From positions 16,936,760-17,000,759 of the forward strand of contig NC_136005.1 in NCBI RefSeq assembly GCF_048128805.1: a stretch of 64,000 nt of DNA, written 5' to 3'. The notes under the pieces are model-generated. The model saw nothing but the letters and a program-made list of their open reading frames with translations, searched no databases and was not told the origin of the DNA. Below are positions 4,219 to 52,054 of the stretch, piece after piece. The position numbers and the translations under genes were made by a program. The number at the start of each line of letters is the position of its first letter. The stretch's first letter is position 1. The DNA comes from Centroberyx gerrardi (Eukaryota > Chordata > Actinopteri > Beryciformes > Berycidae).

Positions 4219-6628
4219 AATTCTCTTTTTCCTCCATCCCTCTACAGGGTGGGCGTGTTCAGCATTGAGGCAAGTCGGACACGAGATTGGCGCCGGGTTT
4301 GATCGCCTGTTTCCGTGAGAGTATCAAATCATGCTTAGTGTAACAAGTCCCTGTGGAGCCGTAACCTTGCGAAACTCACACCTGCATCAGCAGCAGTCTG
4401 CCCTGCCAGCGCTGGTCTGTAATGTAATGGATGGCTGCTATTCTCATTAAACAAATCGCCCAGATGTGTTTTTATACAGAGCATTCCAGCGTCCAGGCAG
4501 GACTCCCTGGTCTAAAGCACAACAGAGCTCATTGCTCTGGTGATGGACACAGCCAGTTATAAGAGGCAGCTTAAGTTCTCCGGTGTACCTGCAGACTAAG
4601 CAAATGTAATAATGTGACAGGAAGTTGGATTGTTGAGCGAGGTGAAAGTACACCACGCCTGTGTCTTCATTCATTAGGTTGACATCTCCACTTAGCAGCT
4701 GTGAGGTATGAGCTGCTTTCTCGTCAGTGATGTATAAGGGTTTTCCATTGCCAGGCAGAGCAAACAATTCAAAATCCATCGACATTCAGTTGATCTCCCC
4801 CTCCCTCAAGAAAGAGAAAAGGTCATGACAGCCTCTGAGGCTTTAACGATGTGTTAAAAACTATTTTGTGGAAAAACATGAGCCAAATCACCTCACCCTG
4901 GGCCCCCCTTGTGTGTTGTTGCTCTTTCAAGATCATGAGAGGCAGGGCGAACGATTAGCAGGACCAGGTCCAGACAGCTCGCTGGAGACCGGCTGTACTG
5001 ATTTTCATCATGAAAATATTACTGTTTGAACAAGCTAGTAGGGCCACAGAGCTCTCTGTTTTCTTCACCTCTGAATTCATCCAAAACCGATTGTTTCAAA
5101 TTCATGAAAACTGAGACATTTGACAGCCGCCCAGATGCTACTAAGCAGTGATGCGTTACTCTGCTGATGACAGCGTACCATGACATCTGAAGTTCATCAA
5201 CACAGACATCAACCTTTGTGAATAAGATATTTAATTTTTTTGAAGAGAGCTCAGAAAATCATTTGACTTCCAAACATTGTTAATCGGCCATTGCTTGTGA
5301 GAGTCCAGATGTACGATCGATGAGAGAACAGGAAGGGGAAACAGCTTGGACAAATGTCTGTATTGGGAAATAGAGTGTCCAAAGATGAAGTCGGGGTTTT
5401 TTTGTGGATTTGTCATCGGAGGGACAGAGAGGAAGTGTTTAGCCATGGTATCTCTGGCAGAGTATGGACACTTGATGTCTGACCTCAGTGGGACTGAGAT
5501 GTTGTGCAGTCACGCCTGTTTGGGTCCATCAGGCCGTCAACAGGGCCGATGGGGCTGAGGGCTCCGGCCGGCCCCCGCTATGACCTCACAGACTAGGCAG
5601 TGCCAAGGGAGGGCCCTTGGGTGTTCCATCACGGACGATTACGAGAACGAGGAGGGTGGGGCTGAGTTGTCAATGTGGTGCACTTACAATATTTAAACAC
5701 AACAATGCACTGACTAATGAAGCCACAGTCCCGTTTTTTTCTGTCTTTCTCTCTAGCTCTGCCTCGTTCCTCTGGTCATAAATTGTGTGCTCCTCCTGTG
5801 CAGCGGTTAGTCTGCGTCCTGCTCCGTTCCAGATGTGTTTAACGGCCTTTCGGGGCCTCAGAGAGCCTGCCTGTCTTGGAGATACAGGGGCCTGAAGACC
5901 AGCAGCGGCTCAGTGACTCCTCCATTGAAGGGTGACTCCATCAGAGAGAAGAGCAGAGCACTCTAACCAGAGTTTCTGTGCAGTAAGGTGATAGACTGAT
6001 AAAATTCCAACAACACAAATATATTATTTATGTTTACTGGTTGTTAGCAAAAGCATGAGCTGTTTTGTCCCTGACTACTGTTCCTCACTTGCTCCTTCTG
6101 TGTTTTTGTATCTCCCCTCTCTTTACGTTGCTCCTTCCTTCTATCCTCTGTCCATTTTTATATTGTCTTTGATTTATGCACTGCAGTCTGGTCATCACCC
6201 ATAACCATGTCATTATGTGCTGTGATATATAGCCCCGTTAATGTCCCCCCTCTGGTCTGGCTCTGGGATCAGGGTGGGTGCTCATGCTCAAGTTCCAGAG
6301 ACTCAAGGCTGTCCAGAACTGAGCGCATTAAGAAAGCCTCCGAGCGTTTGAGAGGAAGCATCACACAGTCCAACAGTGTTAAATCAGGGTTCTGAGACTG
6401 GAAACTGGAAAGTTTAGTTGGACTTGTGGATCTGAGTCTGTGTGGGGTGAGCTCCAACTACAACTGTCTCTCCAATTTGAGCCATGGATTAATATCTCAT
6501 TTCTAGCCCCTGCTGAGCTGTTGTCACCCAGGCCACAGGGGAAAGAGTAGTTTCATCGTTTTTGCTACCAGAATATAGCTAAATCCAGACATGGAAGCTA
6601 AATGCACTCTCTCTCTCACGCTTTCTCG

Positions 6629-6629
<1 letters not shown>

Positions 6630-6681
<52 letters not shown>
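6630..6681. repeat. (TC)n microsatellite
   Basis: About 26 uninterrupted CT units. It produces the low-complexity Arg-Glu reading frame on the minus strand, which is not a gene. Confidence 0.95.
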
Positions 6682-6685
<4 letters not shown>

Positions 6686-9600
6686 GTGTGAGAGAAAGAA
6701 GAGACAACAAATGTGTTTCTGTGTATGTGTGTGCCTGTGATCATGCACAATTGCACTATAACAAACACTCAGACATATCCCCCACAATTTGTCTTTCCAA
6801 AAAAACGGAAGCATTTAAAGCCAACACAACTTTCAAAAAGTCCACAAGACTGTGGCCCTTAAGAACAGTAGGGGACACTTTGGGAGTTACATCTCTTGAT
6901 TTGCCCTTGCCATATAGTATCCTGATGGCTTTCCTATGCTTGGGGTGCTTTGTTGCATTATTGTCCCCAGTAGAGACCAAGCAGAACCAATTTAGAACTT
7001 CTTTCCCATCTCCATCCGTCCAGGACTTCCAGGGTCTGCGGTTACGCCCTCGGTGACCGCAGCTGACCACAGCACACCTGAGTAAACATTCCACTGGCTC
7101 GCAGAGGGACAACTGGGCCACGACAACTGGGCCGGGACATGGCTCTACAGCCTCACTCCCATTTATATCATGGTAGTAGGACCGGACCTGGTCCCAGGAG
7201 CCGGGACCCTTCTGAACCGCTGCGGATCAGACAAGATACTCTTCATGTGGGAATGTGATGAGGAGGCGTGGCGGAAGTTTCCATGACATGGGTTTCTGCA
7301 TAGTCAACACATTTTATTTTCCCATACATATTCCCCAAGTCTCTCACCATCCATTAGCTCACTAATGCAAGGGGTAACTGAGGATACATTGTATTTTTGC
7401 AGGGATATGCTTGAATTTAGATGATTGCCTCCAGAGCATTGACATATAAATTAGTCAAGGATTCATGTTTACATTGGAATGACATTGGAACCACAACATA
7501 CATTTTGCCCACTCAGTGAGGTTGAAACCATAAGCTGATATTATATAGGATATGCTATTCTTAGCTTTCAGTGAATGGTTTTTATGGTTATACTCATGAC
7601 ACAAAATCATAGTGCAACCAACATCCTCTGATGTGGGATGCTAATCACTGCGGCTCCAAACCCACCATGTAATCTATAATCAGTATCTACACTGCTCAAA
7701 GACAAATACTGTTCCACGAATTGCAATCACTACTGGACGAACAAGATTTCATCCAATCAGCAAAACAAAGGAACTCTTTTGTTCTGAACAACAATCCAGG
7801 ATAGCAGCCAATTAACAAATGAACACTACTGTATCTCATCTACAGACTAGAACAGTGGTCAGTGAGCGCGCCCATTAAGAATGTTTTTAATCACCCACAG
7901 GCCCTGGAGGTTGGGAGGCATGTTACAGCTCAGTTTCTGCTCTGCAGAGCGAACGCCTTATTTTGGATGTTAGATAGGGCTTGAAGAGCCAACAGTGTCA
8001 TGGGTTTGCCTGATGAGGAAGCTGGTGCAGGACTGGGCATGGCCTGGAGAGGAGGAGGGCTAATTAGACTGTGTCAATTACTGGGCTGAGAACGTTAGAT
8101 CACTGTGTGAAGGCATCACCACTGGGATGCTGCTGGCTTTTCTTAAGCAAGTTCATTCAAATGTAAAGACACACTCATATACCCCCCTCCCACACACGCA
8201 AACACGCACACGCACACACACACTTCTTTTGCTCAACTTTTGCCAACTATTTCTCTTCTCTTTTTCTCTTGATGAGGTCACTTCAAGGTCCTAATTAACA
8301 CTTGTACACAGATTAGTTAAAATACGCTGATCAGCAGTGACTTTGGGAATCCAAGGACAACTCCAAACTTTGCTTGTTCATTAACTTTGGTTGCAGGGAA
8401 ACTTTGCTGCAAACACTGCAGCAATTTCATCGCTTGGGCTCACCTTTATGATGGAGCGTCAGCGCCATCTATTGTTCAAATGGAGTACAACACTGAGAGA
8501 AATGAATGAGGGAATTGGGCAGTGAGCATGGTAAAATAATCAACCTCAAAATGTGGGTTCAATCCTATAGCACATACCTAATGTAAACACTGGAAACTGA
8601 CTGACACATCCTCTTTGGTATTTATATCACGTGATAAGGGTATTGCTGTGATTGAAGGGAAGTCTAACTTGGAGGAGCTACTGAGGCTTTACATTCATTC
8701 TGCAGAAACTATTGTGGGGTTCTTTGACAGCACAAAATACAAATTGATTAAAACAGAATGCAGCATTCATGGTGGAACAAAGGGTTTGCTAGGAATTTAT
8801 AGCAACCCTGCATGTATTACCAAGCAAGCAGTTCCCTGTCAGCCCAGAGCCAGAGTCCCAAGCAATTCCAAAATGTTTGAGCAGGTGTTTAGACTACAAC
8901 ATGGCTGATTCAATTGATTAACAAATTTAAAACATACTTTTTTGGTCCGCAGAACAGTCTTTCTAAACAGTGTTTAATGCAACATTTAACAAAAAAATGA
9001 AATGTTTGCCATTTTTTATTCTTTAAAAAACTCAGCATAAAAGGCACAGTCAAAAAAATGTATTCATCACTCAGTAACACAAATGCAGTTCAAATCATAG
9101 TTAAACCAACATGGATTTATCTTCTTCACTAAATTAGTAAGTTCAAGCCAGTCAAGGCTAAATTAAGTACTGCGGTGTATAATGATTTCAGTTGTGAGGC
9201 TACAATGAGGCTACAGTACATGTAATTGAAAACAAAATTTAACATTAGAAAAACATAACATCATGCATTGCATTATATTGAATGCATCCAGACTTTGGTG
9301 CAAAATAAGTAGCTATTGATCCTACCCTTGTACACTATCATGTCGCCTACACTACTATTTGGAAAACTGGGAATTAACTAAACACAAACTTCAGTCATAA
9401 AAAGCATAATCATTTCATAAACTGGCTACTATGTTAGCAGTATAATTTCTGAAAGCACACTGGGTCTCACTTGCATCTCAAAACAATTCTCAAAATATAA
9501 AACCACAGCACCAAATAAAATCACATTAAAAAAATCACAGCAACCGATCACATTAAAAATTGCTGTGGCCAATATCAGTCACTCAAGTATTTGTGGAGTT

Positions 9601-10157: not shown

Positions 10158-13100
10158 TTACAGCCGGCTCGCTGTGAGGCGTCCGGGAGACAGGCTTCTG
10201 GTGCTGTTAAATGCCTGAAAACATGACACAGAGAAAAGAGAAGAAGACAGGAAAAAGAAATGTTGGAATATTTCCAGAAACTAAATTAAAAGTAAACACG
10301 CTTGCAATGAAATAAAGCTGAGGTTTTGTAGTACTCACCCTTAGGGCCATGGGGCGTGAATGCATGTTATTTGGTTGGAAAGAGTGATAAGATTCTTAAC
10401 TCTAAATTATATTATTTTTAACTCTGTATTTCATGAGTAGTAAAGCTGAGCCATGTTCAACCCAACAAAAGGATGTAATCCCTTCTGCTACCAAAACCCC
10501 CAACTGGCATCTATCTTGCTGTGTGGTTGGTTTGAATGTCAAAAATCCTAGAGACTTACAAGAGTGCGAGTCGGGCTGACAGAGCGGGAACGCAGTGGGC
10601 TGGTGCTCCTGCTCCGGCTTCTACTCCTCCACTGGAGAAACAGACACATTAACCGCATAAACCTCTGCATCTAACATTCATTGTTCTCTATAGCAACACT
10701 TAAATTAATGATCGTATTTTTCGAAAAGGCGGGATTGTCTGTACCAGAGCGCCTCTTCGGGTCACAGCCTCGCCCTTCACTATCACACCGTCTCCTTCTA
10801 CCAGCGCGGGCCACACATGGTGCACCACCAGAGGAGCAGTGAACTCAGAGTCATAGCTGCGACGATACCTGCCAGACAGAAAGGGAGGGGGAGACGATGA
10901 GGGAGAGAAGGTGTGTTTGGGTATGTGAGTGTGTGAGTGTTATCCATGTGTTGAGGGTGACATCCAGTGGCAGGGATAGTAAATGAATATCTAAAGCAGG
11001 AGTATGTTTTTTCTGAAATGTAACCTGAGTGGTAGGCCACAGTTCATAACATGCTGTTGTACGTTGATTGTTTGGAAATGTAGCACGTAAGGATTATCTT
11101 CTTAGGTCTTATGTCATCATGATGTTTTTCAATATGCCTTGTGATAAGCAATATCTCAAAATCAATCTTCAGATATAATAAAGTTGCAAAATTGACCAAA
11201 TAGAACATCACAGCATTACTCTCTGGAACCTCTTAGGAGGGACAAAACAGGCTAAAAACAGGCTATTTTGCCCCTGGGCCGTACTTTGGGCAACCCTTAT
11301 ATAGGATCGGGACACAGGTGCACAGGACTTACTTGCTGTCATTGTAGAGTTCTCCATCGCTGGCAAAGGCCAGGTCAAGAGGGGGGTCCAGTGTCTGCAT
11401 AGCGAAGGCCACCCTGCATGTCTCCCTGATCAAGGTGCTGATGAGGACAAAGTCCACCTCCGGCGGGAACGAGATCCGCGGGTTCACATTCATGACATTG
11501 ATCACATCCTGAGGAGATATCATAATGCACGGTTAGATGTATTCCCTTGTTCAACACTAAAAGTCAAACTACATAAATTTGGCCATAAATGTTGCTACAC
11601 TCAATAAGTCCCTGTATTTGCTATAGAAGACACTTCAGAGCAGAAAAGAGCCCTACATTGACGCTGGCCTGAACATCATAGAGGTCCAGGTTTCTGACGA
11701 TGTAGTCCACAGCCGCCTCCTCCAGACTTTCTGGTCCAAGGTGGGATGGGGACAACGTCTTCCTCACGCGCAGCTTGAACTGACGGTAAGCTAGCTTCGC
11801 TGCCTGAAAGGCTTCCTGAGGAATGAAAACACGGTTACAAGCGGTGGAGCCATGACAAACACTCTTCATTGTTTTGGAGGAAAGCTGAGGCTAAGCCATG
11901 TAATGCAATAGATAATGCACGTTACACTGCGATCATCCCATAATGTGTACATCTCTACCGTTTGCAGTAGAATAACAACAGTCATACCATGACAGCGATG
12001 AAGATGATTTTCTGGACCATCTCTAGGTCGTCAATGTAGCGTCGCAGCAGACTCTGGGCCTCCAGACGCTCCACAGCATACAGGTCACTGAAGCGAGATA
12101 CAAGGCGTGCGTGGCGGGAGGAGTTGGTCAGCTGGGCTCTGGTGGGGGATTCACTCCTAAGGGGGCTGGAAGGGCGGCTGCGCCTGGGCAAGGGGCTCGG
12201 AGAACGACTTCTCACCAACCTGAGGGAGGGGGGAGGGAAATCACAAAAAACACATCAATTCATCGATTCTGAGAAACAATTCTGTACTGTGGTGTTTATG
12301 TGTTTGTATGTGCATGTGTGTGTGAAGGCGTGTGTGTATGGTGTGTGCACGCTTACCTTTTCTGTAGTATGTGTGTGTGTGTGTGTTTGTGTGTGTATGT
12401 GTGGGTGTGGGTGCAGGCGCCCACCTCTCCTGCAGCATGGCCTTCTCTGTGGTCAGGAAGGACACTTCATCTCTCAGCAAGCGAATCTGCCGCTCATAGT
12501 CGTCAAGAGTATCCAGCTTCCTCTTATAAATCTCCACCTGCTCATGTGTGGCACGCAAACTGAAACACACACACTCACACACTTATTAACAGAAGAGGAT
12601 ATATATTGCTACTTAAAATGAATATATCATGGCAGTATTTCACTATATCACTCACTCTGCTTTTAGCTGTAATATTTCATCTTCCGTGGCCAGCAGAGTG
12701 GTTGCTGACTTGTTCTTTGTGTCATCCAGTTCTATATGAGCATCAACCAATCTGTTATGACAAAGATAAAAAAACATTGCATGTTTGAAGTACTTCAAAC
12801 TCTGACTGCTGAAGAACAGAATGGAAAAAATCTATTCATTTTTACCAACATTTGTATTATCGTGTCATTCTAATTCAATAAATTGTTTAAACTGAATCTG
12901 TGAGTTGTCCTGACTGAACAGTTTGGGGTTTTTGTTAGTCTGTCTCAGTGTTAGACATGTTGACTCATCTGCAGCAGACTCACTCTGCTTTGACGGAGTC
13001 CAGCTGCAGGCGAGTGGAGCACAACTGAGTCTCCATCTTCTGCATGTCACTGTCATGGGAGACAGAAAGCTCCCTGATCTTCCTGTCCTTTTCCACCGAA

Positions 13101-16398: not shown

Positions 16399-19300
16399 AT
16401 GGCGTCGGAGCAGGTCCGTTATGCACAGTATTTGTTGTTATTCTTACATTTTACTGCTTTTGTTCTCGAGTGTTTCATAAGAGGGCTTGCTGTATTCCCT
16501 AGACTGACTTGTAATAACGAAAAGGAAAGTATTGGGCTCAGTTGTTGGCCGTAGGGTAATAAATGCGATGCTGGCCTTCGCTCTCTGCAATTTCATGGAA
16601 AAGATACAGTAATTTCAGCGAGTGGGCGATCTGACAACACAATCATTTGGTACAAATAGCATATAAACGGTATAATAGAGCCGTAGTTGAGTTGGATATT
16701 TTTATTTTGCTTCTGAAATGAGTGCCATTTATTTTTAGTTATGGCCACAGACAGGCAGACGCGGGCATTTAACTGGGTGCATATTCCTCCGCGGAGGCGC
16801 AAGAGACGTTGGAAATAACTTACAAATACAAGCCTGGATGTTATGTTGAAAACTATTTGGAGATATGACTGGTAAAGTGGTGGGCACGTTCCTCAAAAGT
16901 AATTATTACGCATGAATCACTTCAAAAGTAACGTATTACTTATTAGGCTACTTACCAGGAGCAGTGATCCGTTACACCACAACCATACTTTACTTTTCCG
17001 TTACGCTCCAAACTTGGCGGTTGTATCCTCTCTCTTACCTTCAGACATCCAGATAGCTCAGTTCCTCTCCTGCGAATGATCAGAGAAACCAAACAGCGTT
17101 TATGTCCAATGTTGCTGTCATCCTTGTGTTCAGTAAAATCACAGTAGTGTGGATACTACCATCCAGAGAAAGTCAACTTCACTGCCATTTCTTATCTGAA
17201 CGAGCTTAGTGTGAAAAGACAACGTCTAATTTTGAGGGAAATTAATCTGGGTATGGTGGTGTAATATAGATTTTAGAAAATTCAACTTCAGTCTGATATA
17301 TGGGTGATTACATAAGAAATTAGCTGTTTTTTATTGGTAAAGATAATGTCAATAATGATAATGACTGAAATTGAATAATGGTAATGACTGAAATTGAAGT
17401 ACTTGTTACTGGGAAAAGTAGTGATATTACTGTAACGCACCAGTGAGTAGGCCCTAACACTGGTCTTGTTGGGTGTATCTGAGACATTGTTTTGCCTTCT
17501 AGGAGAGTTCCAATGGGCCAGTGAAGAAGTCCATGCGGGAGAAGGCTATAGAAAGGCGCAGCATCAACAAGGAACACAACAGCAACTTCAAAGCAGGTTA
17601 TGTACCCATAGAAGAAGAGCGCCTTCACAAGACAGGGCTGAGAGGACGCAAGGGAAACATGGCTGTGTGTATCATCGTCGTCCTCTTCCTCCTCGCCCTC
17701 ATTAACCTCATTGTGAGTACTACAAGCCTGAATGCACTTGTCCATAAGGGATGATCACATTGTATTGTTTCATGAATCGTGAATCGGATTTGTCTCTAAA
17801 AGTCAGTAACAGTTTTGCCATCTCTCAGATCACTCTGGTGATATGGACGGTGATCCGAATCGGGCCGAATGGCTGCGACAGTATAGAGTTCCATGAGACC
17901 GGGCTACTGCGCTTCAAGCAGAAGGCGGACATGGGCATCGTTCACCCGCTGCATAAGAGCACAGTGGGAGGCCGGAAGGACCAGGACCTGATCATCACCG
18001 GCAACAACAACCCAGTGAGAAACAGCAGAACACACTTACAGCAAACACTTACCGAGCAAACTCAAAACCTGGAAACCTATCTATCAAAAATGACACGTTG
18101 ATTGGATAACACACACTGATCAGAACTTAATAATAATAATAATAATAGCTTTATTTATATAGCACTTTTCTAAACAAAGTTACAAAGTGCTTTACATATA
18201 AAACACAAGGAAAAAAGCGAAACGAAAATATGTCGAGACAAATAATAGTTAAAACCATAAAACAAATAAAATCATAAAGATAAAAGATAAAACCTAGATA
18301 AAAGGAAGTAGATTAAAGAGTAAATAAGTAAAACTATGAGAAGGCCTTCTCATAAAAGTGAGTTTTGAGAAGTGATTTAAAGGACGAGACTGATTTTGAG
18401 TTCCACAGCTGAGGGGCCCGGACGGGAAAGGCCCGGTCACCTTTGGTAATGAGAAGAGTAGTAGGAACGACCAGGACACCCTTGCCTGAAGATCTCAGGC
18501 TGTGTTGTGACTCATAAGGGACCAGCATATCTAAAATGTAGCTAGGAGCCTGACCCTTTGAAGCCTTAAATGTTATCAGTAAAACCTTAAAATCAATTCT
18601 AAAACTCACAGGAGAAGAGAGGATGGGTGAAATATGTTCCCGTCTCCTGGAATTAGTCAAGAGCCTAGCAGCAGCGTTTTGAATTAACTGGAGGCGGGAG
18701 ATAGTCTTCTGGCTCAGCCCTGAATACAGAGAATTAGGATGGAATAAAAGCATGAATGACTTTTTCGAAATCAGCAGTGGTTAAAAAGGACTTAATTTTG
18801 GCAATGGCCCTAAGTTGGAGGAAGCATGACAGAACGACACTTGGCTGTCAAAAGAAAAGTTGGAATCAAAGATAACGGCCAAACTTCTCAACTCTTTCTT
18901 TTTATCTCATGTGTTGTTCCAGGTCGTGTTCCAGCAAGGCACCACCAAGCTGAGTGTAGAGAAGGACAAGACCTCGATCGTCAGTGATGTCGGCATATCC
19001 TTCACCGACCCGCGCACGCAGACCACGTTCTTCAGCACAGACTTCGAAAACCACGAGTTCCATTTGCCCAAAGGAGTCAAAGTGCTCAGCGTTAAAAAGG
19101 CTTCCACAGAAAGGGTATGTGTCTTGCTCATAACTGTATTATGACCGTGACAAAACAAAAGCCACTCATGAATTGTCTGTGTTATACAACCCATGCACTA
19201 AACTGGCATATATGCTATTCAGGGAGTTGGAAAATCGAATATTTCTGTCCGTTTTCAGATCACCAGTAACGCCTCATCGGACCTGACCATTAAAGGGGAC

Positions 19301-21746: not shown

Positions 21747-24700
21747 ATGGCAGTGACACAGGGGCCATTCTTGGCCGCTGTGCTGCTCCTTGTCTCCCAT
21801 GGGCTCCAGTGCTCCCCTCCCCTGCCTGGCTGTCCTGCACCCTGCCTCTGTCAGAGAGCTCCCCTGTTGAACTGTTCCTCCTCTGGCCTTTCCTTGGCGC
21901 CGCAACGCATCCAAGCCACCGCCACTGAGCTGGACTTGTCTCATAACCTCCTGAACTCTATGACGCTCCACCGGCCACATCACAACCTCAGGAGCGTATG
22001 GCTGGGAAACAACAGTATCACACACTTGTCTCTCTGCATAGAGAGAACCATGGGAAACCAATATGTCAGAGGTAAACATCCACATCGCTCAAGACCGTGG
22101 AGCAGACAGGGATGTGTATCTTGGGCCCCCGCCCTGCAGCTGCTATCTGTTGAGAGGAATCAGCTAGTTCAACTCCCAGAGGGTGAGTCGGTCACACACC
22201 CGCAGATAAAACACTGTCTCAGCACCATACACATGTACAGCGCAGTCAAACAGTCTTCTCAATGGCCGGTGGACTCAACATGGTGAATTTTGTAATTTTG
22301 TTGCCACATATACACTATATAGATCAGGCGCTACTGTTATCCTTGCACGAGAGCACACTGCGGTACTGTAGCATCCTCACACATTCACATTAGCTGTCAG
22401 CTCACACTCAAACCCTTCCACAGCAGTTGTTTGTATCTCAAACAGTCCGTCCTGAACAAGTATAGGTCCACTTCATGGGCTTCATGGTGTTTCCCAAATG
22501 CTGACTCCCAGAAGTCAGCACATTACTCCTCCCTTTAAGCCTACCCTCTAAAAAGAGATAAATATGGTTTGAGGTCTACTAATTCTTCTATGATAGCAGA
22601 ATAAGTCTGTGGGCTGTGTGTATTTCAGTACTTCCATCTCCAACTCAACAAATAAACAAACATGCTCAGCAATTAATATGCTTTATCTTTGGTACTTTGC
22701 ACTATTTGGAAATGATTAAACCTCCCCAGATAATGACACAATGCATTCAACAAATTACTTTACAACCTTCAGCCAGTCACAGAGAGTTTTTATTGACATT
22801 CCAATGGGCCATAAGAAGGCGTAGACATGCAATGATTGTACTTTTAAGGAGTTTTTCCTCCTGCGTCGTCTTAGTTAATAGAATTCCCTGTAATGGATTG
22901 AACATATGGGTGTTTCAAAGAGATGTATGCGCCCGGTTCTTTTAGAGGCATGTGTGGACAGCCCATTTGCTTAGCAAGAGTTCTGTTGACAGTCATAGAC
23001 TTCTTTCCTGTTTGGTATTCAGCTCACAGAGCCCTCAGCGCCTCTAATGAAGCACAGACCCACAGTGCCTTACTTCAGCCCAGCAGTCTTAGTGAGATTG
23101 TCTCAGGCTAGTGAAAAGGAGCAGACAGCAGGAGAGGCTGAGCAGCGAGGAAAAATTCTTAGCCCTTAATTAGTAATACAGTAGGCAAATAAAGTTATTA
23201 TTATATTGAAAATAACCCAGGAGAAATGTGGATTCATATTCTAGGGATGGAATGTTCATTGATTTGGAAAAAATATATATATATTTAATAAATAAACCCC
23301 ATCTGTATTATCTATAAAGGGGAGAGGGGCCTGTAGTTTACTTTGTTTAATCTCAGCATTGAAAATCACTACTCCATGATGTTCAGCAGCCATTGCAGAC
23401 TTATTACATTGTCAAGATCTTGGAAACAATTATTACAGTAGTATTTAACAAAGTGGCTTTATAGCTACACACTCGGAAATGCACAGCCATTTCATCTTGT
23501 AAAACTCAGTGAGGAATGTCAGGCAGGACAGGACAAAGGTGGATAGATGTCATCATCGTCACAAACCTGCAACTTACATCCCTTGCTCCCTTCACAGGAG
23601 CTACCCCATCATCTTTACTGTCGAGTTCTCATCAAAGCTCTTGTTTTCTGTCAACCAGGGCTAGGAGGTAGTGAGTCTTTACAGGTTCTGCAGCTCTCCT
23701 TCAACAGGATCTCAACTCTGCGACCAGGAGACCTGAGCCATCTTGGGCAGCTGAAAGAGCTTCACCTACAACATAACCGCATCACCAGCCTCCATTCACA
23801 GGCGCTCAGGGGTTTATCCCAGCTCCGGGTAACAATGCTAATACCTCAATCACCAGACTTTCATAGTATAACCATTTGTTCTTTAGGATTTGATGTATCA
23901 TAAGCAGTTTATTATGTTTCCGCTATCTGTCAGTTTTGTCACTTCATCGGTTAACCCATAGAAAACAATGACACTAAACTTAGTATTTCAACAAACTCAG
24001 TAACTCTGTACAAAAATGCTTTGCTCATTGGTCATTTGCAGAAAAGTATTCCCCAAACAAAAGAGAATGTAGTTTAAATTATGCATTGACATAAAGTGGT
24101 ATGTTGGAATGACATATTTTAACACCCATGTTCATATTGTGTCCTCCTCCAAGGTCCTTGATTTGAGCTTCAACTTGTTGACCAGCGTCCATCCCTTGAT
24201 CTACCTCTCCCTGCGTAACATTGGGGCGGATGTTAGGCTGAGTGGGAACAGGTGGCAGTGTGACTGCAGCATGAGCAATCTAAGAAGATGGATGGCCTAT
24301 GACAGCAACAGAGGCCAGCAGGCCTGGAGCGTGGAGTGTGCTTTCCCCTCCACCCTCTCAGGCAGAGACCTGCTACATTTGGAGGAGGATGACCTTATCT
24401 GTTTTAATGCTCAGAACAGGCCAGGGCTCCACCAAGATGTGACAGTCGACAGCGGCTCTGAGATACTGCTGTCTTGCTCTACACAACAAGGTAACCTAGT
24501 CAGACAATATGTAATATCGTTTTTCCAGCACTCCACAATAATGCCTGCTAATACTAGAGGTTGCTAATGTGCAGAAAACATAAAATATGACACATATAAA
24601 AACGAAATATCAATGTAGGCCACTCTAACTGCACTTCAATGTTGTTGTGTTTGTTGTAGATTCAACATGGTGGACGCCCAATGGTCAAGTGTCTGTGAGC

Positions 24701-27700
24701 CAGACTCAGGCTGGCCTGCTGATCAGTGAGATCACAGAGAGAGATGCAGGACTATATGTGTGTGTGTCTGAATCAGAACAAGAAATTGTGTCTGTTTTTA
24801 ACCTGCAAATCAGGAAAACAGGAGAAACAAAGAGGAAAACCAGAAGCCCCAGAACTTTACGCAAGAGTAGCCAACTGATAATCCCTCAGGACATCCCTCG
24901 TATGATGGGTCAAGGAAGGAACCAGAATACTACGCAATCTGACTTGACTCTGGCTGTGTGTCTATCTGTTTTCATCACCTTCCTGGTAGCCTTTATCCTC
25001 GGAGTCCTAGTCAGACCTTTTATTGATGTTCTCTGGAGAAGGGTCTGCAACAAGAAACGCTCCTCTCCAACCCATTCTGTCTCATCTGCAGGACAAAGAC
25101 CGTATGACAATGATGCCTACTCTAGTGGTGAGGAGCCAGAGGAGATAGGGACTCACAGGGAAAGGAGAGTGACATTTAACACTGTAGAGTTTAGGGAAAA
25201 CAGAAATGTGCCATATTATGATACTGTGGCCAGTGGCAATCAGGAAAACATCAATGAAGCTGCAGTGATAGAATGTGAAACAGTTGAGGCTGACCACTGG
25301 TCTTCAGGAAGTGACAGCAGCTTACAACCAGAGGATAACCAGAGTGGAGGCAGAGACCTTTCAGGTGTCAGTGATCCAGGCCCCACCCACAGCATGGAGT
25401 TTGAACACATCCCAGACCCGAGTGAGCTGGATGAGAGGATAAGCTTGTCTTCACACTCAGATACTTCTCTATCTGACAAGGTGCAAAAACAGGAGCAATT
25501 GACCCAGAGAGACCCCTGGACATCTCAGTCTCCTCAGCTGTTGGAGGACCCTCTTCAACAGAGGTCCAAATCTCCTACAGTCAGACCAGTAGAGGTGCCA
25601 CAAATTTCTATAGATGACAGAAGTGAAATCCCTGGATTTTCCTGTGAGCCCTTTTCAGATTGGTCACCAAACATAAATAGCGCCAACCTAACAGACCCTA
25701 ATGTGTGGCAAGAGAATGGAGAAAAGTTTGAGTTCAGTGATTCTATTGGAAGTCCTTCGGCAAGGTCCAGCGTTCTCTTTGGTTCTTTTGATGATTCAAA
25801 TCAGATTGCATTTCTACCTTCAGATAATAGGAAGAGGTCTGATAGCTCCAGCTCCAGCTCCAGCTCATGTGTCAGTGGGGATGAGCCTACACAATACACA
25901 GTGAACCCAGAGAGAGGGGAAGATGAGGATGTAGAAATGACCCAAAATGACCTGCTTACTAATGATACTAAACCCAAGATCGCTAACACTTGCCTTAAAC
26001 AAGATGTTACTTTTGAACAGCAGATTCAAGGTGTAGACCCATTCAAATCTTCTCTGCAGGGGGAGGGATTTAATCAGGGTGACTACAGACATGACACACA
26101 AGGGCTTTCAGTGGGACCACAGCACTTTGATTTCTCCGATTCCAGTGACAGTGATGACGAGCCCATGGAGTACACAGTCCAACAAGAAACAGATGAGGAA
26201 AAGGAGAGGGAAGAGAAGGTCAGTAAGTCTGATAAGCCAGCCAGCAGCATAGTTACAGTAGAGAGGGACAGAACTGAGGAAGTCAACCCCATGCCATGGA
26301 CAGATCTACAGTGGCCTGACCAAAATAAAGACAGAATGGAGGTGGGAATCACAAGCCGTGAGCCAGAAACACAGTGGCCTGACCTGGATCTGAGCCGTAT
26401 CACTCACATCAAGAGGCGTTTGGATATCAAAGCACCATCACCACCACTTGATTCACCTTCAAGTAGTGAGAGTGCGGATGAAACAACAGACCGCATTGTG
26501 AAGCAGGAGCGAGGAGGGGAAATGGACATGGCAGGGCTCCCATTTAAAGAATCTCAAATTGTGAGTCAGGAGCCAGAGATAAGGTTGCCTGACCTGGATC
26601 TGAGCCGTATCACTCACATCAAGAGGCCTGATCTGGGTCTCACTAGTGCTTTCCATATCAAGAGGCATCTGGATATCAAGGCACCTTCACCTCCACCTGA
26701 GTCGTCCTCCAGTAGTAGTGAGAGTGAAGATGGGACTACAGACCCCATGGTGAAACTGGAGAGAGACAGAAATGATTGTGGGATCACAAATCATGAGCCA
26801 GAGTCAAAAAAGCCCGACCTGAGTCTAGGTGTCCCCTACATCAGTAGGCGTCTGGATATCAAAGCACCATCACAACCAGATGATTCCTACTCTTCCTGTA
26901 GTGACAATGAAAACAAGATGACAAGCCACACGGTCAAACAAGAAAGAGACAGAGCTAATGTGGGGATCATAAGTAATGAGCCAGAGGCAAAGTTGCCTGA
27001 CCTGAGTCTGGGTGTCCCCCACATCAAGAGGCGTCTGGATATCAAAGCACCACCACCACAACCAGATCTAGTTCTCAGCCGTGTGCCTCCATACCCATCA
27101 GTTGAATCACACTCTTCTAGTAGTGAAAGTGAGGATGAGAACAGAAACCACACAGCTAAACTAGAAATGGAAGTACCTGTTGTATCAATGGCCACAGAAA
27201 ATGAGCCCATTAGGCGTCCGAAAGCCTCACTGATAAGCATTCCTCCCACTCCTAAGAGAGCTCACAACATCAAATTAGAAAAGTATGCAAAGTTGGAGGA
27301 CAAAACCACAGCTGAGAACATCAGCCCAGCACCAAAGGTAAACCCAGAGCTGGAGTCACGGTGGGCAGGCATGAATCTCGGAATGTCCCGCTTCAAAAAG
27401 CGTCTGGACATCACATTGCATGAAGATGCACCACCCAAGGTGCCATCATCACCTCCACCTGAGTCCTCCTCTTCCAGCAGTGAAAGTGGGGATGAAAGTA
27501 AAAGCAGCAGAGTGAGACAAAACAAAGGGGCTGGGATGCAAGGAACCATATATAAGGAATCATCTCTGACCTCCGAGAATAAACCAGTGAACGTTTCTCT
27601 CAGTTTGAAGAATGCTGACAATATTAACTCTGACAGCTCGGTAGAGGTGAAGGAGAGGCTGAGTAAAGACTACAGCTTCCCCGCAACCGAAGAGAAGTCA

Positions 27701-29770
27701 GACCCAGAAGCTATGTTGGCTGGTCTCAGTGTTCCCCGTATTAAGAGGTACGTGGATATCAAGATCACTGAGAAGGCTCCACCTACACCACCATTACAAC
27801 AACCGCGTGATTCCTCCTCCAGCAGTGAGAACGAAGATGAGTCAACAGGCCATGCAGGTAAAGGATGGAGGGAAATGCCGCCATCTATGGAGTCTGAGTC
27901 AACGTGTCGTTATCTCAGCAATGTCCCCCACGTCAAGAGGGCTCTGGATATCAAAGCACCATCACTGAGTGAATCTTCCTCCAGCAGCAATAGTGAGGAT
28001 GAGACAGTACACCACACTGTGCAAATGGAGAGTGACAGTGTTGATATGGGGCTCACAAGTCATGAGCATGAGACAAAGTTGCCTGACCTGAGTCTGGGTG
28101 TCCCTCGTATTAAGAGGTATCTGAATATCAAGGCACCATCACCACAACTACATGATTCTTCCTCCAGCAGTGAGAACGAAGATGAGTCAACAGGCCATGC
28201 AGGTAAAGGATGGAGGGAAAGGTCTCAGCTGCCATCTATGGAGCCTGAGTCAACGTGTCGTTATCTCAGCAATGTCCCCCACACCAAGAGGAATCTGGAT
28301 ATCAAAGCACTATCACCATCACTGAGTGAATCCTCTTCCAGCAGCAACAGTGAGGATGAGACAAAGTTGCCTGACCTGAGTCTGGGTGTCCCTCGTGTTA
28401 AGAGGTATCTGAATATCAAGGCACCATCACCACAACCAACTGATTCCCCGTCTTCCAGCAGTGAGAACATAAATGAGATGACAGGACACACTGCAAAACA
28501 AAACAGAGATGGAATGGATCTGTCTGGAATTACGCACAAATCATCACAAATAATAAGTCATAAGCATTTAGGTATCAAAGCACCATCACCAACTGGTGAT
28601 TCTTCCTCATCCAGTAGCGAGGATGACACTACAGACCACGCAAAACAAAGGAAAAAAGAGGCTGAAAAGTTAACCGTCACACAAGAAGATTCATCCCGTA
28701 GTGTGGGAGGAATAAATGCTGCTCTTGCACCAAGGAGAGATCTCAATATCAACTTTGATGATGTTGTAAGGAGAAGGATTGAGCAGGCCAGGCGCACCCC
28801 AGATGTGGACCTGCCATCTGAGTTAAGGTGGACTGGCGTTACTCGTCATTTGCCTAACCTCCCGATCGCTAGCCAGAGGAGACGTCTGGATGTAGGTATT
28901 CAGCCTCCCCAAGAAGCTCCACCTGCAGTGCCAGGAAGCCCCCCACCTAACTCCTCCTCCTCCTCCTCCTCCAGCAGTGAGAGTGGAGATGAGATGAAAC
29001 CAGAGAGAGAGAAAGCAGAGATAACACAGTTGCCTAAATACTCGTCTCTCAGTCCTGTTAGTGCTACTCTTGCACCTAGCGGAGCTCTTGACAACAAATT
29101 TGACAACTCATCTAGCAGCACAGACGGGACATCAGAGGACAGGAGGGAGAGGAAGGGCCTGAGTGCTCTGAAAGCCTTGTCATCAGAGAGACAAAAGTGG
29201 GACACAGGACATGAAGAGATAGAGATAGAAGCTGGTTTTAACTATCACAGCTCTGAAAAGGACGTCAAGCCTCTTGCCAAACTGTCTCTACCAGAATTAC
29301 TCCTCGCCTCTACCTCAATAGATGAGAGAAGAGCTGGGGGTTTCCCCCGCCGCAGGAGGCATGTAGTTGGAGGTATTCAGCCACCCCAGGAGGCTCCACC
29401 TCCTATCCCAGCAACACCACCACCAGAGGAGAAGGGGGCAGCGACACCCACATGGAGGTCTCCACAGAGCAGTGGGAGACAAGAGTGGAAAAGCATGAGT
29501 TCCTATCAGCAACGGGAGAGAGGCATGGAGGGATTTGCCCCTTCTTCACCATCCTCCATCTCTCAGGGAGATGAGGGAGAAATGGGTGCAGCCCATGTAG
29601 GACTGCTGGGTGCAACTCCATATCACACAGCAAGGCGGTATCAGAGTGTGTCTCCCACTAGCACACAAAAAGTCAGCTTTGACTACGAGGAGAGCAATAT
29701 GACCTCCCCCAGCAGCTCAAAAAACTTCACATTCCATTTTGACTCCTCAAACATGATTAGTGATGTTTAA
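21747..29770 (+). CDS. lrrc66: Leucine-rich repeat-containing protein 66, giant repetitive tail
   Basis: Coding exons: 21747-22182, 23659-23828, 24154-24490, 24660-29770, frame continuous, about 2017 aa (human about 880). Order: signal peptide (1-22); cysteine-rich LRR N-cap (CPAPCLC); degenerate leucine-rich repeats (about 55-235) including LQVLQLSFNRISTLRPGDL; LRR C-cap with WQCDC; an Ig-like domain split by the last intron (about 290-365; C in LLSCS, a WW, and DAGLYVC); a membrane span near 410-432 (LAVCLSVFITFLVAFILG) that closely matches human LRRC66; then about 1580 cytoplasmic residues in one exon. The tail has about 13 units of a basic motif plus serine-acidic run, and ends ISDV, a possible class I PDZ ligand. 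Position between sgcb and dcun1d4 matches human. Molecular function of the family is not established. Start chosen as the first ATG after the acceptor, followed by a signal peptide. Confidence 0.9.
26380..29430 (+). repeat. lrrc66: Protein repeat array in the lrrc66 tail, about 13 units
   Basis: Each unit has PDLSLGVPHIKRRLDIKAPS or a variant, a proline-rich spacer, then a serine run ending in acidic residues (SSSSSESEDE), followed by a variable spacer often holding VKQER-like charged sequence. Units are about 45-110 residues apart. Variants of the basic core include KRYLNIKAP, KKRLDIT, KRYVDIKIT and, near the end, RRRLDVGIQPP. The serine-acidic runs fit protein kinase CK2 consensus sites (known preference; phosphorylation here is inferred). 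The frame is open throughout, which argues for selection on the protein. Confidence 0.92.
27809..28437 (+). repeat. lrrc66: Recent in-frame tandem duplication inside lrrc66
   Basis: A segment starting at 27809 recurs from 28154 (offset about 345 bases) with few changes, carrying ENEDESTGHAGKGWRE and ESTCRYLSNVPH in both copies. The part at about 28068-28147 (LPDLSLGVPRIKRYLNIKAP) recurs at about 28358-28437. The second copy lacks about 20 codons present in the first. Both copies stay in frame, so unit number has changed recently. Confidence 0.9.
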
Positions 29771-32428: not shown

Positions 32429-35400
32429 CTATGACATCTCTCTTTCCTTGTACCATTCCACAAACTCATCCAACAAAACTGGCCCTGACAAAAGAAGGAG
32501 ATTAGAATGGTTATTTGCACAACACTCTCCTGAAATGCTACTGTCAAATATATGTATGGCGTTCACAGTGTGTTCACTCACAGGCACCATCCTCATCATA
32601 GTTACTGAGGTCCAGGTTGATTGTCCTGCTGAACTCTAAAACATTGCACCATTGGTCTTTGTTGATGACTTTGTACTTGGATTGCTGAAGAACACATAAA
32701 TGCCTTGGGTCAATACAACACAACAACCTTTTTAGTTACAGCAACTCTATCCAAGGTCAAACTGTAACTGTAACAGTCTTAGATATACCTATGAGATATG
32801 GTCTGATCTACACTATTGTAATGGCTGCTGGGGCTGGCAGAAAATTCTGGACAAGGCTCTTACCTCTAGAAACTGATTAAACACAGGAAACAGAGGCCAC
32901 GTCTTCCCAAGAAGAAGTCCCAGCATACACTTGGCCGTGTTCAAGTCCAAACTCCTCTGATCCTTTTCCTGTCCAACCAAAAACACCCAGGGGTTCATGA
33001 GGTCAAGGTGTAATGTCTATCAACCATAGTTCAAACAGAGGGACACTCCAGTAACATCATTATCTGCAACCTTAGACCCCATACACAAAACAGATCAAAT
33101 TCTCAAACCCATTGCTTAATGATTGTGTTAATCAAATATGGCATTATTGTCGCAGTCACTGCATGTTTTCATTCACTATTATTTATGCTTTCATGCACTA
33201 TAACCTCCGAGTGAGTTGCTTTCCTGAAAGCATGTCTACTTCAGCCAAACGCCAGGATATGTAAACAGATCAAGCTACACGTTTGATAAGAGCTTTCGCA
33301 CTGCAAGTCAAACTGGAAAATGATCTTGGCATACTCAAATGATCAAGAGTGTTCCAAACACTGGTTTGGATAGGTCCTGAAGGAGGTTTTAAGTACTACT
33401 TAGCAAAGAAGTATGTGAGCATTTTAGGCTTTGCTGGACTCACCCGAGCAAAATCAAAGGCATATCTGTAAATGAGCTTAAAACTGGTGGTGTCATTTAG
33501 GACAGATCTCAGGTAGTCAAGGGAGTTCCTCAGCCTCTCCGTGGAGTCACACCTGACAACAGCAGAAAACCACCTTAGCCACACTCCTCACTCCACCAGC
33601 TGCTCTAGTGACCACTGAAGCACCATTACAAGACATGAGAGACAGAGAAAAACAGCAAGGCAAGAATCAAACTTGAATACAACATCTACAAAACAAATGG
33701 TAGGAGACCGACTTACTGCAGCGAGCCCATGCCTCTCAGCCACTCCTGCAGAGTGAAATAGCCCATACTCTGGGCATCCAGCTTCCAGGCCAGAACCAGC
33801 ATCACCACCTGGGCACAAACAACACCCTTTATGTCCACAGATATCCTTTCGTGTGAGATGATGCTATCGATCTAGATTATTCATCCAACAAGTGAACTGG
33901 CAAAGTCCATTAGATGTCAAACAGAGAACAGATGTCCAGATGCGTGTTTGATACTTTGTTTTGTCAAAGAATCAATGTAAAGAAGTAGAGGGCTAAAGAA
34001 ATTGAAACTATGCAGCTGTAACAAAAACTGTATAACTAGTCAAAAAATTGAGAAACTCTAAAAAGGCAAATAAGCTCCTTACATTCTCTGGTTCCACTCC
34101 AATGTCCTCACAGAACTTCTCCATGCCCTCTGGACCCACCACATCATCACAGCCTGTTTTAGACAGACGAGCATGAAGCCATTATCCACCATGTACAGCA
34201 TCAATCTAAACACCTGAGACTAAACACCGATTGTATTGACCAGTGGTCTTATATGACACCATGCATACGATACAGTAATACACTTTCTACAGCATAGTTG
34301 CAAAGAGTAAACAAAGAATGTATGATGGTCATTCCAATCCAAAATGCTCTGCGCACAGCAAGGTGCTAGCGGCAAGAAACATGCGAACCTGACGAAGCTT
34401 TGGCGAAATGCGTTGTTCGCCATCTTAACCTGTCTAATAAAGTAATGGTATAAATGATGGTTGGCCTGGCTTCTCAGTGAGTGCGGTGGACTACTTAAGA
34501 TTTGAAAGAATGCATGATGTTCTGAACGGAGCGGCCGATAGCTGATATTAACAAATACGCCAATACCTCACCTGCATACTCATAGAACCACTCCAAGCAT
34601 CTTTTACTGGAAAATGTCTCCTCCTCACGGATTTGTGTTGTCTCATGTTTTCTGAAAACACTGCAGATAAAAGAAGACAATTTTAGTCACACGCTGAGCA
34701 GGATTACAGCAAGCATAACACTTCCCTAACTTCAGAATATTAAAACTAGACAATGTGATTTAAAAAAAAGCCTATTTCTAACAAATCTCTGCAGGGTGTG
34801 TACACACATTGTGCTATAATAGGCCTCCTCAACACTCAATGCTTCGACATGACTGGAGAAGATTATGAGTTATCACTATGCTATTAGACAGGCAGTCTTT
34901 GAATCTTTTGTAACATTTTAATGAGAGTTATGAACAATAGGGATGGCATACCTGTCCTGACGACTTTTCTTGGCTGACATGTCATCTCCAGCAGAGGGTC
35001 TCCTCTTTTTCCTAGGAGGCATGGCTCTAGAGCAACAAGCTGGGGATGGAAGGGGAAGACAAAATGAAAGAGCATATTATAAGCAATTCATAGATAATGC
35101 ATATTTACTCTAACGTGCATGTTCTCTAACATGTTGGCAGTAAAACTCAGAGCAGCAAAACCCCACCATGGTAGGAGTTTTTACACGACTATGTCCCAGT
35201 AATAGTGACAGCATTTAAAGTTGCAAGCTATAGCAAATGCACACAAGGACCAGCTGTGTTAGTACCTGAGGGGTGACTATCCTGTCCAACGTCTTCCGTC
35301 AGGTTCTGTCAAGAGAGATACACAAAAATGTTAGCCACATGCTTGTGGGCAGACACACGTGTACACAGTGCACGCTCACACACGCACTGCGCTCACTCAC

Positions 35401-36928
35401 ACACACACACACACAGCTAAAATATACAAGCTGCCAATATGTATTTACCAGCCTGTGCAGGGTGTGGTAGATCTTGTGGATGCTGGCCAGTGTAGTCAAG
35501 TGGGAATTCAGCTGAAAATCTATTCCCACAAAAAAAGAGACAACTTTATGAAAATTAATACCATACCAGTGTACATACGCTTCAGCTCTTAATAAAACTC
35601 AAGAGCAAGATACAAGTAAATGAGCATAGTTCACACTATCCTGCATATTGAGAACAGTTCATTTTTAACTCTATCAAAGCAGTTGTGATGACTGGACGGT
35701 GACATCATTATGGCACTAAACGTATAAATCTGAGCTCGAGCTGTTTTCTTCAATAATCAAGATAGATCTTACAATGCTCAGATTACTCTCTTCTCGTCTC
35801 AATTCCTATGATTACAGGTTTAAAAAGTATAAAACGACAGAAAAATGATCATGCACGCATGAGGGAGTCTCTGTCTGCTCTCCTCGACATACATGCAAAC
35901 ACTAAAGTATTTTTTGTCGTGCAAGCTACCTTGTCGCCAAATGTCATCTAGTCATTTGTGTTCAAAAGCTGTCATCCAGTACAGTTGCTTTCAATATGTT
36001 TCCAAAGGCCAAAACGAGACAAATCAACACAGTGCCGAGTAGATAGCACTAGCTGCATACCTAAAATAGCAGTGCAGACGCACAACTTGCACAGAGTTTA
36101 CAAAGTATCTAGAGAGTTGGGTACATGGGCGTTGTAGTCCATTTCCGTAAAAGGGGCCATAGAAACCTCGGCTCTGCTTGGGAAATCAAACTACAATTCC
36201 CAAGCCTTGAAAAACAATTATTTCATTCAGACCCCTCTCCCCCCAACATTCACCCCAACTGATTGAATGCATTTTACATTGTTCCAAAAAATGTAACATT
36301 AAATGTCTACTAGCACATAAGCATTGCGCAGATCTTTTGCAGCAGCTGATGTAGGTGCCGCAGAGCCCGACAGCACTACTGCAGCAGGCAATGAAAGATG
36401 TTTTACACAACTGCGTCACAATTTTCATTCTCTGTAATTGTCCGCAGTTGACTGGAAAAATGACCGATTTACAATTGCATTATGTTGTTCCCAAGTTTGA
36501 GTTGACACGCATAGCGCAACCTCAGTAATAATCCATATAGAGACTCCAACGCATCAATTATGGCCGAAAATCTTGTTAATTTTAACTCACGTAGGCTGCA
36601 TTCAACTGAACAACGCTAACGTTACACGAAAACGGACTTAAGGACAACTGCCGTGTCAAAAGTAGCCTACTGCATGTCCACAGCAACTGAAATTACACTA
36701 TTCCTCCTTTGTTGTCGCCCCAAGACAGCACTGGAAAATACAAAGAGACCAGCAATAGCACGGAATTCATGCGTTATCAGCTTGTACAGAACCACGGGCC
36801 AAAAGCGGGCGTAGAAACACAAAGCATCTGGCTGCTTGTCTCCGATAAACGCTGTATCATCGATGTGTATTAAATGATCGACAAAAGCCTCTGTAACGTT
36901 ACTACTTACTTGCCGCATCAGAGTGCAT
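32429..36928 (-). CDS. dcun1d4: DCN1-like protein 4 (cullin neddylation), 11 coding exons
   Basis: Coding exons in transcript order: 36928-36910, 35519-35449, 35305-35266, 35039-34952, 34660-34572, 34153-34083, 33808-33717, 33552-33444, 32968-32864, 32684-32582, 32484-32429. Frame is continuous, total 280 aa (human 292). The N-terminus starts [20 protein letters not shown]; a basic segment [10 protein letters not shown] is a likely nuclear localisation signal. From about residue 90 to the end lies the potentiating-neddylation domain, with [30 protein letters not shown] and [10 protein letters not shown], ending [14 protein letters not shown]1-like proteins bind cullins and the acetylated N-terminus of the NEDD8 E2 to promote cullin neddylation (family knowledge). 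The gene converges on lrrc66 as in human. Nothing is missing. Confidence 0.97.
36122..36202. promoter_or_regulatory. Pair of inverted ZNF143/STAF-type motifs
   Basis: ACTACAACGCCCATGTA is read on the minus strand at 36122-36138, and ACTACAATTCCCAAGCC on the plus strand at 36190-36206. Both match the known ACTACAAYTCCCAGMATGC promoter element bound by ZNF143/STAF closely in its core. They lie in dcun1d4 intron 1, about 0.75 kb inside the gene, which suggests a second or main promoter there. Binding is inferred. Confidence 0.6.
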
Positions 36929-50816: not shown

Positions 50817-51132
50817 TAAGGGTGCTCCAATCGATCGGCCACCGATCGTTATCGGCCGATATTCGTTCTAAATAGTTTGACTGGTGGTCTCTATAAAGGC
50901 CGATCAGAAGAGCCGATCAGATGATGCAAAACACGCAAGACAATTTCTCTACGCGCTGCTAAAATGGCTTCACCGGTCTGGCAGTTCTACCAGGTGTCTG
51001 AAAAAGACAATAAATTTGCAAAAATGTTAGGGAGAGACGAGTTGGGAAGAGATCCAAACAGAAGTAGTCTCTTTGTGCGGTCTGTCTCTCGCTCTCTCTC
51101 TCTGTCTCTCGCTCACTCCCTCTATGTCGCTG

Positions 51133-51187
<55 letters not shown>

Positions 51188-52054
51188 CGCACTCTCTGTC
51201 TCGCTCACTCTCTCTGTCTCGCTCACTCTCTCTGTCTCGCTCACTCTCTCTCTCTCGCTCACTCTCTCTCTCACTGGACCCGTCTGTTCGCCTCCCATTG
51301 CACACGCGGGCGTGAGGGATATTTTTTTTTCCATGCCAAGAAGACGACCGGCTGAATTCCCAAAAAGAAGAACTAACGTTATTCGGAATACAGCTGGGTT
51401 TCCGAGACTAGCAGATTAGCTGTATATAGGCTACTGTAGGTGCTAGTCAGTATCCACTGAGTGGACTGAAAACGTTAATATTTACTTTTTAACTCTGACT
51501 CTAAATGTTTGCTCCCTCAATCCAGATTAATATTGAAAAATATTTTGTTATGTTGCAGTTTTTATAGTCTCTAAAGTTGGAGTAAATTGATAAAGGCCCG
51601 GTGTTTTCCGTCTATTGAAATTGATTTTTGTTGCCTCAGTAGGCCTATATATAATTTATTGTTCTAACTTGGTGTGTTGTGCACATTTAGCTTTTATTCT
51701 AATTTTTATTTTATAAAATGTTATTTATTTTATTCCACAGGAAAGCTATATTTGTTAAGCTCTAAGCTGCTCCCAATAACCAAGCGTAGGCTGCTATGGT
51801 TTAAATTGTGTCTCTAAGAAAGAGAGTGGAATATGTTGCACATGTTGCCTGCCAATAAACAGTTGTCAATTCATGATACTTTCTCATCTCTTAATTTTAA
51901 TACTTAATATACAATGTTGTTAAGAATAGTTAAATAAATAAATAATGCTACACGATGAATAGAAGGCTTCAAATAGACCCGGTGATCGGTATCGGCCGAT
52001 ACTGCTTCCAGCGATCGGTGATCGGCCCCAAAAATCCTGATCGGAGCACCCTTA
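50817..52054 (+). mobile_element. Degenerate hAT DNA transposon with 8-bp target duplication
   Basis: Terminal inverted repeats TAAGGGTGCTCC at 50817-50828 and its inverse at 52043-52054, with CGATCGGCC-type subterminal repeats on both sides. The direct repeat TAAATTAC flanks it (50809-50816 and 52055-52062), the 8-bp signature of hAT elements. Near the left end an ATG at 50964 starts MASPVWQFYQVSEKDNKFAK, resembling the BED-finger N-terminus of hAT/ZBED transposases, but the frame loses similarity after about 20 residues and runs into a TC repeat. No catalytic domain remains. Confidence 0.9.
51080..51275. repeat. (TC)n tract with TG run inside the hAT element
   Basis: Long pyrimidine-rich TC repeats with a short TGTGTG section and CTCGCTCACTCTCTCTGT-like units. 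They create open but meaningless Ser-Leu and Arg-Glu frames. Confidence 0.93.

Follow-up and report, generated by a model that had tools for sequence, protein, structure and literature searches.

To our knowledge, LRRC66 has no established function. In zebrafish the gene is reported to be induced by pneumococcal infection and is termed 'functionally uncharacterized' (PMC9858863), and in human gut biopsies it appears in a gene list (PMC3400627). For the part of the protein treated here, its long cytoplasmic tail, two other systems offer parallels. NOLC1 and TCOF1 carry pyrophosphorylation in their acidic regions, and the pyrophosphorylation sites of two human cell lines fall mainly in acidic serine-rich stretches of mostly nuclear or nucleolar proteins (PMC11427299); sorting through phosphorylated acidic clusters and PACS-1 is known for furin and CI-MPR (PMC3743005). 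Here we consider 64,000 nucleotides of Centroberyx gerrardi DNA (assembly GCF_048128805.1, contig NC_136005.1, positions 16,936,760 to 17,000,759 of the forward strand; the whole stretch is called the window below, with positions counted from its first letter), in which a plus-strand gene reads as fish lrrc66 from its domain architecture and gene position. On the evidence of its repeat copies, the tail of this protein demonstrably grew through repeated in-frame internal duplication of one unit of about 55 residues. The original prediction knew of no description of this repeat. A search of the literature, with subscription papers mostly outside its coverage, found LRRC66 mentioned in 52 papers and little studied in them; the titles, abstracts and passages covered gave no account of the tail or the repeat, nor did 'disordered' combined with LRRC66 yield anything.

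The gene model comprises four predicted exons encoding 2,017 residues and was assembled from splice-consistent reading frames. The frame stays open in eight splice combinations, from which the one restoring a normal leucine-rich repeat (LRR), as judged by eye, was picked; exon 4 is common to all eight.

21747..22182, plus strand: lrrc66 exon 1, coding from the ATG; signal peptide (judged only from hydropathy and by eye) and first LRRs (splice-consistent frames; Pfam LRR)
23659..23828, plus strand: exon 2, LRRs (splice-consistent frames; Pfam)
24154..24490, plus strand: exon 3, with the final LRR, a C-terminal cap recognised by eye and the first half of an immunoglobulin (Ig)-like domain (splice-consistent frames; Pfam)
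24660..29770, plus strand: exon 4, second half of the Ig-like domain, membrane span, whole cytoplasmic tail and stop (open run of 1,702 codons)
24941..25012, plus strand: membrane span at residues 409-432, its limits drawn by eye (hydropathy)

The spliced N-terminal part matches LRR_8 at 68.5 bits (Pfam), and the Ig-like domain that follows the repeats is marginal, with PF00047 (ig) at 21.9 bits against a cut-off of 21.8 and Ig_3 at E 4.3e-6 yet under its own cut-off. Residues 409-432 form the sole strong hydrophobic span (best 19-residue window 2.95, at residue 414), the best values elsewhere being 1.54 at the N-terminus, 1.17 within residues 25-390 and 0.92 beyond residue 440. This architecture of LRRs and a single span agrees with the original assignment to LRRC66, as does the position of the gene between SGCB and DCUN1D4, which is the human order as well. 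As predicted from these features, the product is a type I membrane protein whose ectodomain is of the LRR-Ig kind and whose cytoplasmic tail is intrinsically disordered; the tail has 1,585 residues, close to the roughly 1,580 first proposed. Within exon 1, 29 residues (99-127, ERTMGNQYVRGKHPHRSRPWSRQGCVSWA; 22041-22127) break the LRR ladder, possibly as a loop or through a missed splice.

The last exon begins at 24660, directly after an AG acceptor, and ends at 29770 with the last base of the stop codon, so that both the boundaries and the openness of the claimed 5.1-kb single-exon frame match. An uninterrupted frame of 1,713 codons runs from 24629 to the stop, and the exon 4 run of 1,702 codons compares with a longest run of 223 in 1,000 first-order Markov simulations, which rules out an open frame arising by chance.

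A profile search resolved the tail into ten full and three partial copies of the unit (partial copies at residues 952-970, 1616-1649 and 1714-1767), in line with the 13 or so units expected, together with two weak serine-acidic modules. The majority unit is ExExxxPDLxLxVPHIKRxLDIKAPSPPxxxSSSSSSESEDExTxHxxKxER, in which a basic-hydrophobic linear motif, xIKRxLDIKAPSP, is followed by a serine run with an acidic end.

25847..25921, plus strand: degenerate serine-acidic module 1 without basic core, residues 711-735 (1.9 bits, weak)
26135..26203, plus strand: degenerate serine-acidic module 2 without basic core, residues 807-829 (5.9 bits, weak)
26360..26524, plus strand: unit 1 (profile)
26570..26626, plus strand: partial unit, N-terminal part only (14.1 bits; its DNA is 91% identical to the beginning of unit 1, DNA family D9)
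26621..26779, plus strand: unit 2 (profile)
26795..26959, plus strand: unit 3 (profile)
26978..27169, plus strand: unit 4 (profile)
27347..27529, plus strand: unit 5 (profile)
27701..27874, plus strand: unit 6 (profile)
27890..28048, plus strand: unit 7 (profile)
28064..28228, plus strand: unit 8 (profile)
28241..28369, plus strand: unit 9 (profile)
28352..28519, plus strand: unit 10, overlapping the end of unit 9 (profile)
28547..28663, plus strand: partial unit 11 (34.5 bits, profile built without it)
28835..29017, plus strand: diverged unit with its core at residue 1721 (21.2 bits, profile built without it)

When each of 12 units (ten full, two partial, the copy at residues 952-970 being omitted) was scored with a profile built without it, scores ranged from 21.2 to 92.4 bits against a shuffle maximum of 8.3, at 200 shuffles per unit (199 reported for three units) and with unit boundaries taken from the full profile. 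Candidate cores at residues 1673 and 1879 could be aligned; the profile did not pick them up, and the later counts leave them out. A profile match at residues 1786-1806 (-0.9 bits) was not counted.

Several properties of the DNA inform the history of this array. Tandem Repeats Finder returned a single 37-base array between positions 22000 and 32000, and thus the copies have diverged and do not represent a simple recent expansion. Successive serine-run copies (DNA family D2) are spaced by a multiple of three bases in 11 of 11 intervals, the spacing itself being uneven, at 39-119 codons in nine intervals and 172 and 199 in the other two. Synonymous divergence (dS) between full units is at least 0.60 in 37 of 45 pairs, with a minimum of 0.30. 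Blocks of two further families (D8 and D10) lie 345-351 bases apart at 92-93% DNA identity, and a 22-codon part between units carries one synonymous change only; from this near-identity, units 6-7 and 8-9 are probably the outcome of a recent joint duplication. Judged by these copies, the array is old, yet still turning over. Because TCN and AGY codons are mixed in all 14 of the serine runs listed, these runs are not one slipping trinucleotide, and this mixture, together with the divergence of the copies, rules out a simple microsatellite or slippage origin.

The units also appear to have been constrained as protein. Among the ten full units, aligned DNA blocks 12 or more bases long fell in a common codon frame in 64 of 64 cases, for pairs with a local score of 40 or more. 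The Nei-Gojobori ratio of nonsynonymous to synonymous divergence (dN/dS) is below 1 in all 45 pairs (median 0.46, range 0.12-0.85), values that are biased low by a protein-guided alignment and by the choice of copies by motif, and that come from non-independent pairs, with units 9 and 10 overlapping. The pooled ratio of nonsynonymous to synonymous differences (pN/pS) is 0.57 in the true frame versus 1.20 in frame +1 and 0.80 in frame +2, and mismatches are modestly more frequent at the third codon position (0.23 vs 0.17 and 0.15). In the serine-acidic stretch pN is 0.20 and pS 0.81, at which synonymous sites are saturated, and on this comparison the run is clearly kept at the protein level. 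The between-unit figures support a translated and constrained frame, and are no substitute for a comparison between species. They speak against one of the two outcomes that the original prediction named as refuting it, a tail dN/dS near 1 across fish, while not being the equivalent of that measurement.

What is retained is a pairing of opposite charges. As the original prediction held, a basic core is coupled to a serine-acidic run, and this was found in 12 of the 12 units examined: the core carries a net charge of +2 to +4, and the run -1 to -4 when unphosphorylated and between -2 and -17 once a simple CK2 rule is applied iteratively. A hierarchical, clustered CK2 rule finds 80 sites in the tail, compared with 23.5 in shuffles (maximum 42 in 500), and acidic clusters of the form S[DE][SDE]?[DE][DE] number eight versus 1.2 in shuffles, with none of 2,000 reaching that count. 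Charge and hydropathy place the tail among disordered sequences (0.391, with the dividing line at 0.430), and in keeping with this AlphaFold gave a unit no fold (predicted template-modelling score 0.14, mean predicted local distance difference test 66.7, one six-residue helix). A free C-terminus ending in S/T-x-hydrophobic is the class I PDZ ligand rule, and the tail ends in a candidate of this kind; two RVxF-like motifs lie near its ends.

25163..25177, plus strand: RRVTF, PP1-docking-like (RVxF) motif near the membrane (motif match)
29669..29680, plus strand: KVSF, second RVxF-like motif near the C-terminus (motif match)
29756..29767, plus strand: C-terminal ISDV, candidate class I PDZ ligand (sequence)

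Loose RVxF matches in the tail are not clearly above shuffles (three vs 0.8; reached by 115 of 2,000). SUMO-type psiKxE sites (five vs 1.4 in shuffles; reached by 26 of 2,000) are a weak lead, being few and in part of common ancestry. The sequences VKQE, VKLE, IKLE and MKPE occur at 26498-27280 and 28994-29005, and three of them follow the serine runs of units 1-3.

The most likely reading, though one held with somewhat less than even confidence, is that this is a disordered, multivalent, CK2-phosphorylated, membrane-anchored docking tail, whose partner, kinase and cellular effect we infer. CK2 would phosphorylate the serine runs hierarchically, starting at the acidic end, and would shift most of them from a charge of about -3 to about -10 or beyond. 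The charge of each run could then set how strongly the adjoining basic motif binds a partner, be it a protein, the membrane or another tail, and many weak sites on one anchored chain might provide graded, avidity-type docking, with the C-terminal ISDV possibly tying the tail to a PDZ scaffold.

Several results weigh against this picture. The plain S/T-x-x-D/E count is not enriched (61 vs 54.8, reached by 339 of 2,000 shuffles), and enrichment of sites for the phosphorylation foreseen in the original prediction is confined to the clustered rule. Its alternation of basic and acidic segments, which holds within the units, is just modestly above shuffles along the whole tail as windowed charge variance (reached by 30 of 500). 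The dN/dS of the basic core (0.47) is no lower than that of the N-linker (0.54) or C-linker (0.52) to any marked degree, because synonymous divergence in the core is also low, and this measure gives no sign of special constraint on the core. The AlphaFold run behind the lack of a fold had as its input an alignment of the repeats against each other only. A 24-base DNA family, D13, contains one interval that breaks the frame; one of its sites falls in the Ig-coding part of exon 4, and the match is probably due to chance. The biases and dependence of the pairwise dN/dS values given above count on the same side.

That near-equality of core and linkers weakens the docking reading and strengthens near-neutral drift in length, a possible though less probable account, in which the tail is a flexible spacer that gains and loses units by unequal exchange, selection keeps only frame, solubility and disorder, and copy number has no specific function. 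Uneven spacing of the serine runs, truncated units and the recent 92-93% identical copies would all be expected of such a process, as would the strong divergence of the C-linkers (pN 0.43). Raw protein divergence, however, is lower in the core (pN 0.16), in 'AP' (0.05) and in the serine-acidic part (0.20) than in the linkers (0.30 and 0.43), a contrast to be read knowing that the core served to define the units and that 'AP' is two columns; the retention of the serine-acidic part despite saturated synonymous sites is likewise difficult to reconcile with drift.

The serine-acidic runs may instead be sorting signals, CK2-primed acidic clusters of the furin kind that are read by adaptors of the PACS-1/AP-1 type, with repetition raising the efficiency of retrieval. 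Serine-acidic clusters in the tail of a membrane protein, in their marked excess over shuffles, are what this would require, and the mechanism has the precedents in furin and CI-MPR cited at the outset. We nevertheless regard it as unlikely, since it leaves an equally repeated basic core unexplained, and since the signals known to us are single short clusters, less rich in serine in the case of furin than those of LRRC66. A more ambitious extension of the docking reading, in which the tail would be the equivalent of Nopp140 at the membrane and LRRC66 a receptor nucleating a CK2-tuned, possibly inositol-pyrophosphate-modified condensate beneath it, with a strength set by a number of units that varies between fish, is a long shot.

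It is highly improbable that the basic core docks cyclins in the manner of an RxL motif, or acts as a nuclear localisation signal, the S-P beside it being the target site, which would make the tail a multi-docking kinase substrate or a nuclear fragment that can be released. Matches to [RK]xLx(hydrophobic) number 12 in the tail versus 2.3 in shuffles (11 at counted cores and one at the dropped core at residue 1673), and SP follows the core in several units. These matches descend from one ancestor, however, so that they count for little more than one chance event; in unit 6 V replaces L and there is no match, the SP/TP total is not above shuffles (27 vs 30.0), and a plasma-membrane tail would be an unusual cyclin partner. 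The parallel in E2F1 (KRRLDL) turned up no paper in a literature search for it.

It is just as improbable that part of the long frame is missing from the mature protein, whether through introns hidden in it or because the exon is not transcribed. On a simple matrix, acceptor-like sites reach 6.4-8.8 at five places in the tail, above the three acceptors of the gene itself (2.7-3.6), but no tail donor exceeds the set score of 4.5, a level under which two of the gene's three donors (1.2 and 3.2) also fall, and the in-frame constraint runs across the array. Hidden splicing is unlikely in view of the missing donors. At the best of these acceptor-like sites, 28975, the serine codons TCC TCC AGC AGT (28956-28978) form a pyrimidine-AG tract, as similar serine runs do.

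The surroundings of the gene in the window are as follows.

11985-12254, minus strand: MIEAP/SPATA18 exon (Pfam)
18337-18780, minus strand: open reading frame resembling, by eye, a fragment of a fish reverse transcriptase of the long interspersed nuclear element type, without a Pfam match at E 0.01
18830-19141, plus strand: SGCB (Pfam Sarcoglycan_1, E 1.1e-10)
32432-35520, minus strand: DCUN1D4 exons, converging on lrrc66 (tblastn with a human peptide; most of the human protein matched)

Simple repeats rich in CT/GA at 6583-6760 and 51027-51400 are open in several frames.

Searches for relatives of the tail yielded little. A Pfam scan of 12 units gave no convincing family among two at E up to 1, the better being the PT disordered repeat (0.034, in one unit). 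The best PDB profile match, B-Raf (E 0.0041), was rejected as a short SP plus serine run and a second tiny stretch (best stretch alone, i-Evalue 0.21), and the TAF7 alignment covers the bare serine-acidic run only; the PDB profile matches shown are serine-run coincidences. Against viral contigs, the unit alignment gave 53 pattern matches and the span with its juxtamembrane region 21, none confirmed in either case, and the latter region gave 188 against prokaryote genomes, again with none confirmed, as expected for a vertebrate gene.

Among known systems, LRRC66 of other vertebrates shares the LRR ectodomain, the single span and the SGCB/DCUN1D4 gene order, and differs in length, the human protein presumably having about 880 residues compared with 2,017 here; the original prediction put the tail at about three times the human length. 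Receptors of the LRIG, LRRC4 (NGL) and LINGO groups share the LRR-Ig-span architecture, and LRIG1, LRRC4C and LINGO-type chains are found among the best 60 of 365 relatives with solved structures, as ranked by sequence; the top PDB match is IGFALS, which is not known to have a membrane span. The tail is an example of a repeat expanding inside a protein under apparent protein-level constraint, and a dozen copies of one motif may give a handle on the cellular role of LRRC66, through the partners of a single unit with and without phosphate. Furin-type sorting signals are short and are not known to have a repeated basic partner. What they have in common with LRRC66 is a membrane protein tail with CK2-site serines set in an acidic cluster (PMC3743005). 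The likeness to Nopp140/NOLC1 is one of architecture, in that acidic serine clusters and basic segments alternate repeatedly. Nopp140 and treacle are soluble and nuclear or nucleolar, whereas LRRC66 is predicted to be anchored in the membrane, where a nucleolar location is unlikely, and so the comparison is one of 'works like' and not of membership; if the docking reading is true, this acidic-serine and basic repeat architecture would reach from nucleolar scaffolds to a surface receptor.

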